Of a stretch of 64,000 bases of DNA, positions 1,797 through 59,183 are shown in pieces (the first letter of the stretch is position 1; every line of letters begins with the position of its first letter). The stretch spans positions 1,115 to 65,114 of the forward strand of contig JAGWBW010000008.1 of the NCBI GenBank assembly GCA_021295695.1, in the 5' to 3' direction. Under the pieces are notes generated by a model, which worked only from the letters and a program-made list of their open reading frames with translations, did not search any database and was not told the origin of the DNA. A program made the position numbers and the translations under genes. Origin of the DNA: Candidatus Latescibacterota bacterium (GTDB taxonomy: Bacteria > Latescibacterota > UBA2968).

Positions 1797-4100
1797 TTAC
1801 CGGGTGCCAGGAATAAAAAAGACAGCATCTTTTTTTGTGCTCTGGTCGATATTTTTATCTGTGATTGTGAGTTTGAGGGTGTAGCGTCCGGGTGCGAGGT
1901 TGGTGAGGGGCATTTCGAGATAGGTGTTTTCGTCGGGGTTTATACCGACTTGATCAAAGCTGAGGCCAACGGCCTCGGTATTTTTTTCGCCCAATTTGGC
2001 GAGGAGGGATACGAGCGCGAAACCGGTTTCCTGGCGTTTTTGCACTTCGTAGGAGATGGTGTAGCGCGTTTGTCCAAATTCGTCGCGTTTGAGGTTGTAG
2101 ATTTCAAAGTAAACGTACATGGACATGCCGGGGGCAAAGGTTGCCGAGGGCTGCGGCTGAATGTAGAGGTCGCCGCGCACAAAGGATGTGTCGGGTGCGC
2201 GGTCCGCTTCGACGATGCGAGAGGCGACCTGGATGTCGCTCATCATCAGACGGCTTTTGTCGTGATAGGTCGGAAAGTGAAGATTGGGCTGGCGATAGGC
2301 GCCAATGCGGTTGGTATTTTGACGCCATGCTTCTACGGACAATTCATATTCGCCGGGTTCGGCGATGTGGCGCACGCTGCTCAGGGCTTGCAAACCGCGA
2401 CCGCGATGGTCGTCTGTGATGTCGATGGCCAATGCGCTTTTGGTGTTCTGAAAATCGAGCGCGCGGGGATAGATAAGCGCGGTGCGACGCTCGACGACCA
2501 CAGTGGTGTCCGGGTCCGTAGGCAGGGCCACATTGTCTAAAGGCAGGCCAAATATGACCTGTAATTCGGTTTTGTTCTCCGGGCCTCGAAATGTGAGGGT
2601 GTCGAAGTAAAAGTCGAGGGGTTCGAGCGTTTCTATGCTGTACAATTCGGGTTCTATTGCCGCGAGCGAGTGGGCGAGGGTGGCAGGGTTAAATTCGTTG
2701 AGGCGCTGAATCACGCTCATGTAAGAGCGCCCGGAGGACTCGGCATTGGCGAGATCTTCTTCGGTCAGCGATGGGACGGGGGCAAAATCGTAGTTCCCAC
2801 CCAAAAATTCATCGGTAAATGTAAATTCTGCGCCCTGTCCGAGGTTTTTGTATAGCCATACTTCCCAGGGTACAGAGGTCCAGCCACTGGTCGTTGTGAC
2901 GGGACGGTAGTCGGTAAAGCCCATATCGCCCACGCGGCCTGTGCTGCCTTGCTCCATGGTGCGAATCGGATAGACGGGACCGACGAAGTTGGCCTCAATG
3001 CCCGCATCGCCGTAAATTGCATACGCTCTTTGTTCTTGAATGCGCTGTACATCGAGTGGCACGATAGCATTGAGTTTTCGGGAGGTTGAGATATAGTCGG
3101 GTTCGCCATATCGGATGTAGATTTCTCCTCGGCGATCCCAGGGCCACTTTTTGCCAAAGTGGGTTCGCGCATGCCATACCCTGCGATAGTGCTCCGCCCG
3201 GCGCAGTGCGCCTCCTGAGGTTTTAAAGGGATCTTTTTGCAACCAGAAGCGTGTGAGAAAACGCTCGCGTTGTATTTTGTCGTCCGAAGCCGACGCGAGG
3301 CGGTAAGCGCGGGCTTCGGCTTTTGAGCCGATATAAGAGATGTCGTCAAAGAGGGGCTGTTCCTCTTTGGGTAAGGTCTCGATATAGCGTTGAAATGCCG
3401 TTAATGCGCCTTCGTGGTCGCGTCTTTGAATGAGGGCCTGGGCGAGCAATGGCAGTGCGCGGGGGTCTCGCATGCGAGATGTGATGTCTTCGAGATCCCG
3501 GTACTCTTTGGCTTCGTATAGCGCGTAGGCAAATTGGTATGCGGTCTCGTGATCTTCGGGGTTGCGTTCGAGGTATTTTGTGTAGTAGTAAAGTGCGACC
3601 TGATGCGCGCTGCCTTCTTCGCGATGGGCGCGAGCGAGCAGGAGATAGGGAGAAGACAGGTCGGGAAATCGCGCAATGATTTGCGAGGCTGCTTTTCGCG
3701 CGCGGCTTCCCGTATTTTCAAGTGCGAGCAGGGTTTTGATGAGGCGGTCGTGGGCGTCGGCATCTGTGGTGTCGATGGCGACTGCTTTTTCATAGTGTGA
3801 CAGCGCGCGGTCGGGTTTGTCGCGCAGGTTTTGGTAAACGCGACCCAGGCCCGTGTGGGCAATTGCGAGGTTGGGGTGCAAAGCGAGCGCATTTTGAAAG
3901 GCTGATTCGGCGCTGTCGGCTTCTTCAAGGCGCAAATAGAGCAGGCCCATGCGCACATAGCTCGCCGATGAATCAGACGCGGTAGCCAGATCTGCTTTCA
4001 ACCGGTTGATGACGTCGTGGAGGTCGCGGTTTTGCGCGAATCCCGTGCTTGCAAAACTGATGAGGAGCAGATAAATGGTCGAATAGAGAATTTTGATCAT
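1797..4100 (-). CDS. TPR and GWxTD-domain secreted protein
   Basis: 767 residues with an N-terminal signal peptide (hydrophobic residues 4-20 ending SFASTGFAQ). Residues 25 to about 255 form TPR-like helical repeats, e.g. ALHPNLAIAHTGLGRVYQ. From about 280 comes a GWxTD-type domain: FWLQKDPF, the YRRVWHARTHF region and GEIYIRYGEPDYI, a signature in which the usual GW is KWPW here. The C-terminal third is beta-rich with no motif I can name. GWxTD proteins are exported proteins of unknown function, common in FCB-group and Acidobacteria-like genomes. The gene stands alone on minus, divergent from the ptsN-like gene; AAAGGA precedes the start. Confidence 0.82.
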   Translation of the reverse strand: MIKILYSTIYLLLISFASTGFAQNRDLHDVINRLKADLATASDSSASYVRMGLLYLRLEEADSAESAFQNALALHPNLAIAHTGLGRVYQNLRDKPDRALSHYEKAVAIDTTDADAHDRLIKTLLALENTGSRARKAASQIIARFPDLSSPYLLLARAHREEGSAHQVALYYYTKYLERNPEDHETAYQFAYALYEAKEYRDLEDITSRMRDPRALPLLAQALIQRRDHEGALTAFQRYIETLPKEEQPLFDDISYIGSKAEARAYRLASASDDKIQRERFLTRFWLQKDPFKTSGGALRRAEHYRRVWHARTHFGKKWPWDRRGEIYIRYGEPDYISTSRKLNAIVPLDVQRIQEQRAYAIYGDAGIEANFVGPVYPIRTMEQGSTGRVGDMGFTDYRPVTTTSGWTSVPWEVWLYKNLGQGAEFTFTDEFLGGNYDFAPVPSLTEEDLANAESSGRSYMSVIQRLNEFNPATLAHSLAAIEPELYSIETLEPLDFYFDTLTFRGPENKTELQVIFGLPLDNVALPTDPDTTVVVERRTALIYPRALDFQNTKSALAIDITDDHRGRGLQALSSVRHIAEPGEYELSVEAWRQNTNRIGAYRQPNLHFPTYHDKSRLMMSDIQVASRIVEADRAPDTSFVRGDLYIQPQPSATFAPGMSMYVYFEIYNLKRDEFGQTRYTISYEVQKRQETGFALVSLLAKLGEKNTEAVGLSFDQVGINPDENTYLEMPLTNLAPGRYTLKLTITDKNIDQSTKKDAVFFIPGTR

Positions 4101-35105: not shown

Positions 35106-35136
35106 AAAAAAAGCCGCTAATTAGCGGCTTTTTTTT
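35106..35136. terminator. Bidirectional terminator between convergent genes
   Basis: Palindrome AAAAAAAGCCGCTAA with TTAGCGGCTTTTTTT; it can end both the FGE-like gene (plus) and the GroES-like gene (minus). Confidence 0.92.
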
Positions 35137-35159: not shown

Positions 35160-35579
35160 TCACAGGTCGAGGTCGTCCAAACCCTCCAGTTCATCCAATA
35201 CCTCGTCTTCGCCCACTACGGTATCCGACTCTCGAATCACAACGAGAATAGAAGCCTGGGGTACAATGAGATATTTCTCGCCTTCAAAAGAAATCTCCAT
35301 CGCGGCTTTTTGCAAAAATAAGGCAAAATCTCCTTTCTCAACTTGCAGAGGCAAATATCGCGGTTCTTTTGGAGAATTGCGCCATGGTTCATCGTCTGCG
35401 GGCGTTTCTGGCAGCGGCAGACCGGGCCCCGTGGCCATAATGCGACCACTCTGTACTTCCTCTTTTTCGACCACTGTTTGAGGTAAATAAAGCCCGACTT
35501 TGGTCCGCTCTTCCAAATCTTCCCGCTTGATCAAAACGCGGTCGCCAATAACGACGAGTTCTTTGTTTCCTATTTGCAT
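35160..35579 (-). CDS. GroES-like co-chaperonin family protein
   Basis: 139 residues from the ATG at 35579 (GAGAAG upstream); a longer frame to 35660 has no ribosome site and runs into AT-rich DNA. The Cpn10 fold is seen as VIGDRVLIKREDLEERTKVGLYLP, QSGRIMATGPG, GDFALFLQKAAMEISFEGEKYLIV and SILVVIRE. An insertion of about 20 residues (LPLPETPADDEPWRNS) lies in the middle, and an acidic tail (GEDEVLDELEGLDDLDL) follows. Standard GroES is about 95 residues and paired with groEL; none is here, so it may be a divergent second co-chaperonin. Confidence 0.8.
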   Translation of the reverse strand: MQIGNKELVVIGDRVLIKREDLEERTKVGLYLPQTVVEKEEVQSGRIMATGPGLPLPETPADDEPWRNSPKEPRYLPLQVEKGDFALFLQKAAMEISFEGEKYLIVPQASILVVIRESDTVVGEDEVLDELEGLDDLDL

Positions 35580-35695: not shown

Positions 35696-35724
35696 TTGAC
35701 AAATGGATGGATAAGGCATATTAT
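35696..35724 (+). promoter_or_regulatory. Strong promoter of the leader-holB-metG unit
   Basis: TTGACA (35696-35701), exact 17-base spacer, TATTAT (35719-35724). It begins transcription about 35 bases before the leader ORF start. Confidence 0.85.
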
Positions 35725-35767
35725 TTTTCACCGAGTTGCAAATAACTTTTGATTATGGAGCTGTTCC

Positions 35768-35863
35768 ATGTTGTTTTTTGTGCCGACAATGCAGATGCAG
35801 ATGCCCGTCACTGTACGGGCTGCGCGTGTTGTACATTCCCATTGTGAGCAGGAGCATGGATAG
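35768..35863 (+). CDS. Methionine-rich leader peptide upstream of holB-metG
   Basis: 31-codon ORF with GGAG (35757-35760) seven bases before the ATG. Met codons are at positions 1, 8, 10 and 12 (35768, 35789, 35795, 35801), the last three in an MQMQMP run; the peptide ends HSHCEQEHG and stops with TAG. It is too short to be a normal enzyme. It lies between a near-consensus promoter and an intrinsic terminator that directly precedes holB and metG. The pattern matches leader peptides of amino-acid attenuators, with Met as control residue and methionyl-tRNA synthetase as a target. The ORF is seen; the regulatory role is inferred. Confidence 0.6.
   Translation: MLFFVPTMQMQMPVTVRAARVVHSHCEQEHG
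35803..35820 (+). promoter_or_regulatory. Leader hairpin overlapping the Met control codons (possible pause/attenuator hairpin)
   Basis: Perfect 6-bp stem GCCCGT/ACGGGC with a 6-base loop; its left arm begins in the last control Met codon. A ribosome stalled there would open it, freeing the right arm (ACGGGC) to pair with GCCGT of the terminator. A second competing pair is ACATTCC (35833-35839) with GGAATGT (35904-35910), seven perfect pairs. Confidence 0.5.
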
Positions 35864-35892
35864 CGGATCATTTTAGTCGTTTGCATTATGAT

Positions 35893-35929
35893 AAAAAGCC
35901 GTTGGAATGTTCCGTTCCAGCGGCTTTTT
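35893..35929 (+). terminator. Intrinsic terminator between leader ORF and holB (putative attenuator)
   Basis: Arms AAAAAGCCG..TGGAA and TTCCA..CGGCTTTTT, 14 pairs around one T-G wobble, with a 7-base loop and a T-run. It ends 15 bases before the holB start codon, so holB and metG are transcribed only when it is read through or from an unseen promoter. Confidence 0.85.
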
Positions 35930-35944
35930 ATATGAGAGGTAATA

Positions 35945-36988
35945 TTGGAACGGGTGATTGGACAGGGGCGAGCGGTTCGGTTTTTGACCGAATTGATTGA
36001 AAGAGATCGAGTCCCACACGCGCTGTTGTTTTTGGGCACTTCTGGTACGGGTGCAGTGGCGGCAGCTTTGGATTTTGTGCAGGCATTGCATTGCCAGGCA
36101 GATGATGCTGTGGCCTGTAGGCGTTGTGCCGCCTGTCACAAGGTGGCAAATCTAAATCATCCAGATAGTACAATGCTCTTTCCTTTTTCTCGGAGCGTGA
36201 AAGAGGAAGTTAGGCAAGCCGCACTGCACGAGGTGTGGCAATCGCCTTATTACTATCCATTGCCCGACGACAATACGGCGATTACCATTGATCGCGTTCG
36301 GCAGATGCAGCGGCAGTTTACGCACAGTGCTTTTGCGGGGGGCTGGCGCACGACGCTTATTTTACACGCGAATCAAATGCGCGTAGAGGCAGCCAACGCC
36401 ATGTTGAAGACTTTGGAAGAACCGCCTGTTCGGTCGCTGTTGATTTTGATTGCATCCCATGGCGATGCGTTGTTGCCTACTATTGTGTCGCGGTGTCAGT
36501 TTGTAAAATTTCCAGCACTTTCACCGCATGATATCAGTGCCGAGTTAATGGTAAAGGACATTGATAAAACGACAGCAGATTTTATTGGACGCACATGTGG
36601 CGGCGATTTTCGCCGGGCATTGGATATGACTGACGGTCATATCTCAGATAGGCAAGATCGATCTTTTAAGTTTTTGGAAGCCTTGCTGTGGGGGCAGGAG
36701 GAGCGCACGTTTGAAGCACTTGCAAAACTCGACCGGCAAGAGGCATTGGATATTTTGGCAGGTGCAGAAATGTGGCTCAGGGACGCGCTGTTGTTGCAAT
36801 GCGATCGGGGTGATCATATTGTCCATGCTGCACAGGAGGACAATGTCGGGCGATTGGCGGAGGTTTTTGATCTCGATCACCTGACCGCAACGATAAAAAA
36901 GATTGAATCTTTGCGAGAGATGAACCATCGCAATGTGAATATGAATCTGGGCTTAATCTCGCTCTGGCGGCAGATGAAGTCCTTTTGA
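35945..36988 (+). CDS. holB: DNA polymerase III delta prime subunit
   Basis: 347 residues; the TTG at 35945 with GAGAGG upstream is the only suitable start. The clamp-loader fold is shown by RVPHALLFLGTSGTG (a P-loop without the usual Lys, normal for delta prime), the zinc module with HCQADDAV-ACRRC-AACHK (four cysteines), and ANQMRVEAANAMLKTLEEPP. The SRC motif TIVSRCQF of this subunit class is also present. It should take part in the gamma/tau-delta-delta prime clamp loader that places the beta clamp on DNA. It precedes metG by 14 bases and lies directly behind the Met-leader terminator. Confidence 0.93.
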   Translation: MERVIGQGRAVRFLTELIERDRVPHALLFLGTSGTGAVAAALDFVQALHCQADDAVACRRCAACHKVANLNHPDSTMLFPFSRSVKEEVRQAALHEVWQSPYYYPLPDDNTAITIDRVRQMQRQFTHSAFAGGWRTTLILHANQMRVEAANAMLKTLEEPPVRSLLILIASHGDALLPTIVSRCQFVKFPALSPHDISAELMVKDIDKTTADFIGRTCGGDFRRALDMTDGHISDRQDRSFKFLEALLWGQEERTFEALAKLDRQEALDILAGAEMWLRDALLLQCDRGDHIVHAAQEDNVGRLAEVFDLDHLTATIKKIESLREMNHRNVNMNLGLISLWRQMKSF

Positions 36989-37002
36989 GTGGGTGTAGAA
37001 AA

Positions 37003-38889
37003 ATGGGCACATTTTATATTACAACACCGATTTATTACGTCAATGATGAACCCCATATCGGACATGCGTACACGACGATTATGGCCGATGTGTTGTCGCG
37101 TTTTCATCGCCTAACTGGCGATGATGTGTTGTTTTTGACCGGTACGGATGAGCATGGGCAGAAAGTGGATGAGGCTGCGAAAAAACGCAATCTGTCACCG
37201 CAGGCACATGCGGATGAAATGGTGATGCGATTTCAGGCGTTGTGGGAGATCTTAAATATTTCAAACGATGATTTTATTCGCACAACCGAAGCGCGGCACA
37301 AGCGCGTTGTCTCCGAGATTTTGCAACGCATTTACGATGCGGGCGAGATCTATTCCGACAATTACGAGGGCTGGTATTGTGTCCCAGACGAGCGGTTCTG
37401 GACAGAAAAGGACCTGGTTGATGGGAATTGTCCGGATTGCGGGCGGCCGACGGTGAAGATTTCGGAGAAAAATTACTTTTTTAGAATGAGCAAATACCAG
37501 GACTGGCTCATTGAGTATATTGAGACACATCCCAATTTTATTCGACCGGAAAAGCGGCGCAATGAGATCCTCGGGTTTTTGCGTCAACCGCTGGGCGATT
37601 TGTGTATTTCTCGCCCCAGGGCGCGTTTGGAATGGGGGATTCCGCTTCCTTTTGATGAAGATTATGTCTGTTATGTGTGGTTCGATGCGCTGATCAATTA
37701 TATTACGGCACCAGGTTATATCGCCGATGATGCGCGTTTTGAGCACTGGTGGCAGGCGTCTTGCCATCTGATAGGCAAGGATATTTTGACCACGCATTGC
37801 GTGTATTGGCCCACGATGCTCAAGGCGATAGGTGTGTCATTGCCCAAAACGATTATGGGACATGGTTTTTGGCTCGTGGATGAGACAAAGATGGGGAAGT
37901 CGCTGGGCAATGCGATCCGGCCTCTGGATCTGGCGGATAAATACGGCGTGGATGCGTTTCGGTATTTTCTGGTGCGCGATATGACGCTGGGGCAAGATAG
38001 CGATTTTAGCGAAGAGGCTTTTGTCCAGCGTTATAATACCGAGTTGGCGAATGAATTGGGCAATTTGCTCAATCGATCGGTGGTGATGGCTGCGCGGTAT
38101 TTGGATGGGGTTGTGCCTGAGGTTGATGGTGATCATGCGGCACTCGACGCTTTGAAAGCGCAGACGGAGGAGACGCTCAATGCGGTGGGCAAAGCTATTG
38201 ATGCGATGAATCCCAATGCAGTGCTGGATGCGGTTTGGCGATTGGTGCGGGAGGCCAACCGGTTTGTCGAGGTGCAGGCGCCGTGGCATTTGGCGAAGGA
38301 CGCATGCAAAAGGGCTGAGCTTGAGGTGACGATTTACGCGCTGTTGGAGACCATGCGACAACTGGCCGTGTTGCTATTTCCTGTGATTCCTTCAAAGGCG
38401 TGTGAGATTTGGCGGCAACTCGGCGCAAAGGGTTCGCCGGAAGATGTTCATTTGGATGACTTAAAATCATGGGGAGGTCTGGATGCCAATTTGCAAGTTG
38501 CACCTGGCGATCCGGTGTTCCCGCGTATTGAGGAGGTCAATGTGGCAGAAGAAAAAGCGCAAGAAGATTTGATTTCTTTTTCGGAATTTCAGAAGCTCAA
38601 GTTGCGCGTGGCAAAAATTGACGCAGCCGAGCGCGTGAAAGGTGCAGATCGCCTGTTGCAGTTGCAAATTAGTTTGGGCGATGAGCAACGCCAGATCGTC
38701 GCAGGGATTGCTGAATATTATGAGCCGGAAGCACTCGTTGGGCAGCAGATTGTGGTGGTTGCCAATCTGGAACCCGCGACTATTCGCGGTGTCGAATCCC
38801 AGGGTATGCTGCTGGCGGCTTCTGATGATAACGACCTCACACTCGTAACGCCAGATAGTGAGATTAGTGATGGGGCTGAGGTTAGTTGA
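37003..38889 (+). CDS. metG: Methionyl-tRNA synthetase
   Basis: 628 residues from the ATG at 37003; a longer frame upstream overlaps holB. Class I signatures: HIGH in EPHIGHAY and the KMSKS loop as TKMGKSLGN. TGTDEHGQKV marks the MetRS active site. The connective-peptide insertion has one CPDCG pair, so it is the single-knuckle form. The C-terminal 110 residues are a tRNA-binding (Trbp111/CsaA-like) OB domain (FQKLKLRVAKIDAAERV). It charges tRNA-Met. The upstream Met-codon leader is a natural regulator for it. Confidence 0.96.
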   Translation: MGTFYITTPIYYVNDEPHIGHAYTTIMADVLSRFHRLTGDDVLFLTGTDEHGQKVDEAAKKRNLSPQAHADEMVMRFQALWEILNISNDDFIRTTEARHKRVVSEILQRIYDAGEIYSDNYEGWYCVPDERFWTEKDLVDGNCPDCGRPTVKISEKNYFFRMSKYQDWLIEYIETHPNFIRPEKRRNEILGFLRQPLGDLCISRPRARLEWGIPLPFDEDYVCYVWFDALINYITAPGYIADDARFEHWWQASCHLIGKDILTTHCVYWPTMLKAIGVSLPKTIMGHGFWLVDETKMGKSLGNAIRPLDLADKYGVDAFRYFLVRDMTLGQDSDFSEEAFVQRYNTELANELGNLLNRSVVMAARYLDGVVPEVDGDHAALDALKAQTEETLNAVGKAIDAMNPNAVLDAVWRLVREANRFVEVQAPWHLAKDACKRAELEVTIYALLETMRQLAVLLFPVIPSKACEIWRQLGAKGSPEDVHLDDLKSWGGLDANLQVAPGDPVFPRIEEVNVAEEKAQEDLISFSEFQKLKLRVAKIDAAERVKGADRLLQLQISLGDEQRQIVAGIAEYYEPEALVGQQIVVVANLEPATIRGVESQGMLLAASDDNDLTLVTPDSEISDGAEVS

Positions 38890-57165: not shown

Positions 57166-59165
<2,000 letters not shown>

Positions 59166-59183
59166 TATTGAACGGATGGTGAG

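Follow-up and report, generated by a model that had tools for sequence, protein, structure and literature searches.

A conserved attenuator-like leader in front of holB and metG in Candidatus Latescibacterota

The window analysed here is a 64,000-nucleotide stretch of DNA from a Candidatus Latescibacterota bacterium (contig JAGWBW010000008.1). On its forward strand holB, encoding the delta-prime subunit of DNA polymerase III, and metG, encoding methionyl-tRNA synthetase, follow each other and are preceded by a leader with a promoter, a short open reading frame (ORF) and an intrinsic terminator. The features of the locus, including the two strands of the main stem (regions 1 and 2) and the two antiterminator helices (A1 and A2), are as follows.

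35696..35724, + strand: promoter, TTGACA (35696-35701), 17-base spacer, TATTAT (35719-35724); kept in 11 genus genomes, TTGACA-N17-TATCAT in genomes G014 and G013
35757..35760, + strand: likely Shine-Dalgarno sequence GGAG of the leader ORF, 7 bases 5′ of the ATG; GGAG or AGGAG in the genus, AAGGA in G014
35761..35770, + strand: region 1, 5′ strand of the rod stem, which holds the leader start codon and pairs with 35855-35866
35768..35863, + strand: leader ORF of 31 codons, MLFFVPTMQMQMPVTVRAARVVHSHCEQEHG, from the ATG at 35768 to the TAG at 35863; an ORF of 29-37 codons lies at the equivalent place in three genera
35789..35803, + strand: codons 8, 10 and 12 of the leader ORF, all Met; 10 of 11 genus genomes keep the run, and G009, G014 and G013 do not
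35803..35820, + strand: apical hairpin GCCCGT-N6-ACGGGC (6-bp arms 35803-35808 and 35815-35820); arms invariant in 11 genomes, different sequence in the other genera
35851..35857, + strand: 5′ strand of antiterminator helix A1, GGAGCAT, which pairs with 35907-35913
35855..35866, + strand: region 2, 3′ strand of the rod stem, overlapping A1 and A2
35861..35866, + strand: 5′ strand of antiterminator helix A2, TAGCGG, which includes the leader stop codon and pairs with 35899-35904
35893..35929, + strand: intrinsic terminator GCCGTTGGAATG-TTC-CGTTCCAGCGGC with a T run; stem all but invariant in three genera
35934..35939, + strand: GAGAGG, resembling a Shine-Dalgarno sequence for holB, 3′ of the terminator and 5′ of the start codon
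35945..36988, + strand: holB, DNA polymerase III delta-prime (TTG start codon; PF13177, 3.6e-43, and PF09115), first gene past the leader
36985..38889, + strand: metG, methionyl-tRNA synthetase (PF09334, 1.6e-111), second gene

The promoter, the 31-codon ORF with good ribosome spacing, its three Met codons, the 6-bp hairpin and the strong terminator just before holB and metG had been proposed in a preliminary description of this DNA, and all of them were found in the window genome as described there. The overall attenuator-like layout of promoter, ORF and terminator before holB is real and conserved in three genera. Among 15 promoter-like matches in 7 kb the promoter of the holB leader ranked first, with 11 of 12 consensus positions, and no second sigma-70-like match on the forward strand was present between it and holB in the 7 kb scanned. 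Transcription of the leader would start near 35730. The distance from the terminator to the start codon of holB is only 15-38 bases. The TTGGAA/TTCCA part of the terminator is unique to the holB leader. A further strong palindromic terminator at 35106-35127 (AAAAAAAGCCGCTAATTAGCGGCTTTTTTT) has the same GCCG/CGGC base, so this base is probably common in the window genome.

The order promoter, ORF, terminator and holB is common to all 11 genomes of the genus and to two more genera of the family, represented by G013 and G014; in each of these genomes the leader locus occurs once and lies before holB. The nearest named record for HolB is OX638329.1, with 92% identity. A covariance model built for the genus (R1) gave a single match per genus genome, always at the holB leader, and no match in G014 or G013, so the homology of the leaders in these two genomes is based on promoter, terminator, place and partial sequence. 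The interval between promoter and terminator folds as a rod there as well, with a sequence unlike that of the genus. The terminator pattern AAGCCGTTGGAA-N-TTCCANCGGCTT was found at a single locus in each genome of the genus, in G013 and in G014 and was absent from all remaining relatives searched. The gene upstream of the leader is a divergent Cpn10-type gene in the genus, whereas in G013 and G014 it is tsaB-rimI on the same strand (these names were assigned by inspecting translations), and in the sister family f2 an acetyltransferase frame reaches straight to holB and the leader element is absent. Since the upstream genes differ, the leader element goes with holB. In the window the Cpn10-type gene (35163-35579, - strand, 139 aa) has a Pfam match that is split in two, as if by an insertion.

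On the downstream side, the operon of the genus and that of G013 include metG. In G014 the gene behind holB is a metG remnant, which matches residues 423-633, contains five in-frame stops and has lost the catalytic part, and a different metG with 36% identity is located on another contig, an apparent gene replacement. The remnant lies at 2552-3217 of locus L014 (G014:C549:7507-8166), and its tRNA-binding domain is readable as a 147-aa ORF.

Identity per segment was measured against G009, the most distant member of the genus. It amounts to 32% in the intergenic DNA 5′ of the promoter, 94% in the promoter, 89% from the Shine-Dalgarno sequence to the start codon, 50% in the Met-codon part of the ORF, 95% in the apical hairpin, 66% in the remaining ORF, 93% in region 2, 90% in the next 18 bases and 97% in the terminator. 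The segment past the leader stop codon (35867-35884, GATCATTTTAGTCGTTTG) is almost invariant in the genus and offers the terminator arm an alternative pairing register, which G009 favours.

In the three genera the leader ORFs begin 39-47 bases from the 5′-end of the transcript and end within or beside region 2, with TAG as stop codon in the genus and TAA in G014; no obvious Shine-Dalgarno sequence of the leader ORF was found in G013. Of the shuffled leaders, 9-16% per lineage contained an ORF that spans 25 codons or more and ends near region 2, which makes a chance origin of the matching position in three lineages unlikely, if not overwhelmingly so. Within the genus the ORF showed no coding signal, with 5, 11 and 9 changes at the three codon positions, 8 of the changes being synonymous and 14 not. 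A peptide sequence free of visible selection is as expected where translation alone matters, and would also fit an ORF that is not translated; translation of the leader ORF is presumed.

Folding of the transcript 35728-35932 yielded -75.4 kcal/mol (z -5.5 versus shuffles). The whole leader forms one long rod, which the preliminary description had missed, of ~165-195 nt closed by its own ends, with the terminator in addition. Its main stem is made by region 1 with 35855-35866, and the bases of Met codons 8 and 10 also form part of the rod stem. The rod has several bubbles, one of them an internal bubble near nucleotides 42-55 flanked by conserved strands, and base-pair covariation inside the genus is almost nil.

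The best competitor of the terminator is the pairing of 35851-35866 (GGAGCATGGATAGCGG) with 35899-35913. Its helices A1 and A2 together reach -18.6 kcal/mol (p ~0.02 versus shuffled leaders), and because both overlap region 2, the rod and the antiterminator are mutually exclusive. The two pairings named earlier, ACGGGC with GCCGT and ACATTCC with GGAATGT, both exist and are kept in the genus with wobble-tolerant changes, but they are absent from G014 and G013. The broader idea of a competing antiterminator thus survives in a pairing that had not been listed, one that excludes the terminator and is kept by compensatory change between genera. In the combined alignment of the genus and G014, 98.6% of the cells of A1 are paired. 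G014 carries two double compensatory changes in this helix (G-C to A-U and A-U to U-A), and a G-U pair is replaced by G-C in G014 and by A-U in G002; G009 has one mismatched pair and may use another register. An 8-bp equivalent of A1 is present in G013, which MAFFT does not align in register for A1 and which was left out of the pair count. A2 is kept in the genus, and three of its six pairs are kept in G014.

In the genus, G014 and G013 alike, the best partner of the terminator left arm and loop lies at the place of region 2, and for the strand of each clade the most favourable partner is the terminator loop of that clade (-9.9, -10.0 and -10.9, versus -5.5 to -7.1 with the loops of the others). 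A duplex test with a 45-base window that was picked after looking gave shuffle p values of 0.014 for the genus, 0.02 for G014 and 0.115 for G013, or ~0.002 when combined by Fisher's rule for this same window. When region 1 was masked in simulated folding of the nascent RNA, the pairing of the terminator arm with the 3′ strand of the rod rose from 0.00-0.31 to 0.47-0.78. The masked-state pairing was weakly significant against shuffled 3′ windows (p 0.04-0.23), and the shift is partly generic, as shuffled windows pair with a free terminator arm about half the time. Once the transcript is complete, the terminator is in every case the thermodynamically favoured structure, so any switch between the pairings inside the cell would have to be kinetic.

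The leader of the holB operon is thus a real, conserved and attenuator-like element, and its most likely role, at roughly even chances, is to control the operon in cis by attenuation of transcription, through the short leader ORF. The promoter would yield a leader of ~200 nt. By default regions 1 and 2 would pair in the rod, the terminator would form and most transcripts would end just before holB. A ribosome on the leader ORF, short of the stop codon, would keep region 1 unpaired and leave region 2 free; the free strand (35851-35866) would then base-pair with the terminator, at its left arm and loop, so that the terminator would be blocked and RNA polymerase could enter holB-metG. A ribosome at the stop codon would instead occupy region 2 and restore termination. 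The signal for such an attenuator is probably not methionine in particular, and slow translation or initiation in general would be the simplest guess. That a translation-state-dependent attenuator couples holB, and with it the delta-prime subunit of the clamp loader, to ribosome activity and to no single amino acid is offered tentatively, as a possible but somewhat doubtful extension. Each of the tests in support of the attenuator is modest on its own. Against it stand the loss of half of A2 in G014 and the broken A1 pair in G009, as well as the lack of a coding signal in the ORF and, in G013, of a Shine-Dalgarno sequence.

The specific proposal of the preliminary description was a ribosome-stalling attenuator that senses methionine for metG, with a shortage of charged Met-tRNA causing ribosomes to stall at Met codons 8, 10 and 12. 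Three Met codons at alternate positions in 10 of the 11 genus genomes and an operon that includes metG in the genus and G013 speak for it. Among the relatives, G014 and G013 keep an ORF, but the Met run is missing in both and in G009: the number of internal Met codons is three in the 10 genus genomes, two in G009 (where one Met of the 8/10/12 run remains and the other two are lost), one in G014 and none in G013. Control codons matching the operon are therefore not conserved, and no other shared codon run was found across the genus, G014 and G013. No other part of the ORF is as poorly conserved as the Met segment, and region 1 would lie outside the stretch covered by a ribosome at codons 8-12. 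For the ATG repeats kept within the genus, their location in the rod stem strands, where codons 8 and 10 are paired, is a simpler reason; a striking run of control codons in one genome can thus be a by-product of stem pairing. In G014, moreover, promoter, ORF, terminator and a compensated A1 helix are retained despite the decay of metG. As the leader outlives metG there and the Met codons are lost, methionine sensing for metG is disfavoured and is considered very improbable. Literature searches on leader peptides of metG and on attenuation of holB-metG returned nothing relevant.

The main rival of the attenuator is a separate gene for a small rod-shaped RNA, either 6S-like or of an unknown kind, that has its own promoter and terminator; holB would then be expressed by leaky read-through. 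A closed rod of this length with a consensus promoter and conserved strands around a bubble would fit such a gene, and so would the facts that no 6S RNA was recognised elsewhere in families f1-f4 and that the RNA outlives metG in G014; this persistence agrees equally well with an attenuator and with an RNA that has an independent function. However, neither the Rfam 6S model nor R2, a model built from the 6S-like RNAs of the phylum, matches the rod, even though distant families of the phylum do give 6S-like matches of 23-33 bits. For RF00013 there was no match at E up to 10 in the rod or in its own genome, and a search with R2 returned nothing in families f1-f4, so that a 6S identity of the rod is not supported. 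A small RNA would also leave unexplained the matching ORF and the pairing that competes with the terminator, and its position would always happen to be directly before holB; we regard it as rather unlikely. Still less probable is a partial terminator that is fixed and unregulated and merely keeps holB-metG at a constant low level, the ORF and the alternative pairing being due to chance. The high stability of the terminator and the weak individual statistics for ORF and pairing speak for it, but region 2 and the following bases are 90-99% conserved, more than a plain terminator needs, and the compensatory changes in A1 and the agreement of ORF position in three lineages likewise speak against it.

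In ribosome-mediated attenuation, which has been described in terms of regions I-IV and of the part that a ribosome at the stop codon plays (PMC1183508), classical attenuators are reported before the aminoacyl-tRNA synthetase genes trpS, leuS and pheST (PMC1262725). Like the attenuators of amino acid operons (trp, his, leu, ilv, pheST), the holB leader has a promoter, a short ORF, an alternating antiterminator and terminator, a terminator just before the first gene and a stop codon near region 2. Unlike them, it has no conserved control-codon run for one amino acid, its region 1 holds the start codon in place of control codons, its first gene encodes a clamp-loader subunit and it survives the loss of the synthetase gene. 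Because the layout is that of these attenuators and the control codons are not conserved, the leader would function like a ribosome-mediated attenuator and is not classed as an amino-acid attenuator. Also similar to the proposed attenuator is bmrB-bmrCD of Bacillus subtilis, in which ribosome-mediated attenuation through a small ORF and alternative stem-loops answers ribosome-targeting antibiotics (PMC4191407), that is, translation inhibitors and not one amino acid. In bmrB-bmrCD, however, the terminator lies inside the coding part of the leader, and a drug transporter is the target.

6S RNA (RF00013) resembles the holB leader as a ~200-nt rod with its own promoter and terminator and an internal bubble at a similar distance from the 5′-end, but the holB leader is unmatched by RF00013 and R2, tied to holB and, in three genera, endowed with an ORF at the matching place. 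In the distant Latescibacterota families f5 and f9, loci L038, L039, L040 and L041 carry 6S-like RNAs that are full-length (176-178 nt) but score below the Rfam cut-off. The T-boxes of Firmicutes synthetase genes likewise place a terminator/antiterminator switch before a synthetase operon; here, region 2 of the genus contains a UGGA, but neither G014 nor G013 has kept a UGGN at that place, and no T-box match was obtained in Rfam at gathering or at E up to 10. A tRNA mimic was rejected as well, with no match and no conserved CAU in the hairpin loops.

The holB leader is a candidate for a conserved regulatory RNA that has no Rfam entry, and gene regulation has hardly been studied in this phylum; if the leader is an attenuator, it would be an RNA switch that directly links translation to the replication machinery via holB in Latescibacterota. 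At gathering and at E up to 10, Rfam models matched only TPP elsewhere in the window and, by chance, the terminator hairpin. The TPP riboswitches form a pair, back to back on opposite strands, at 58898-58987 (- strand) and 59084-59179 (+ strand).
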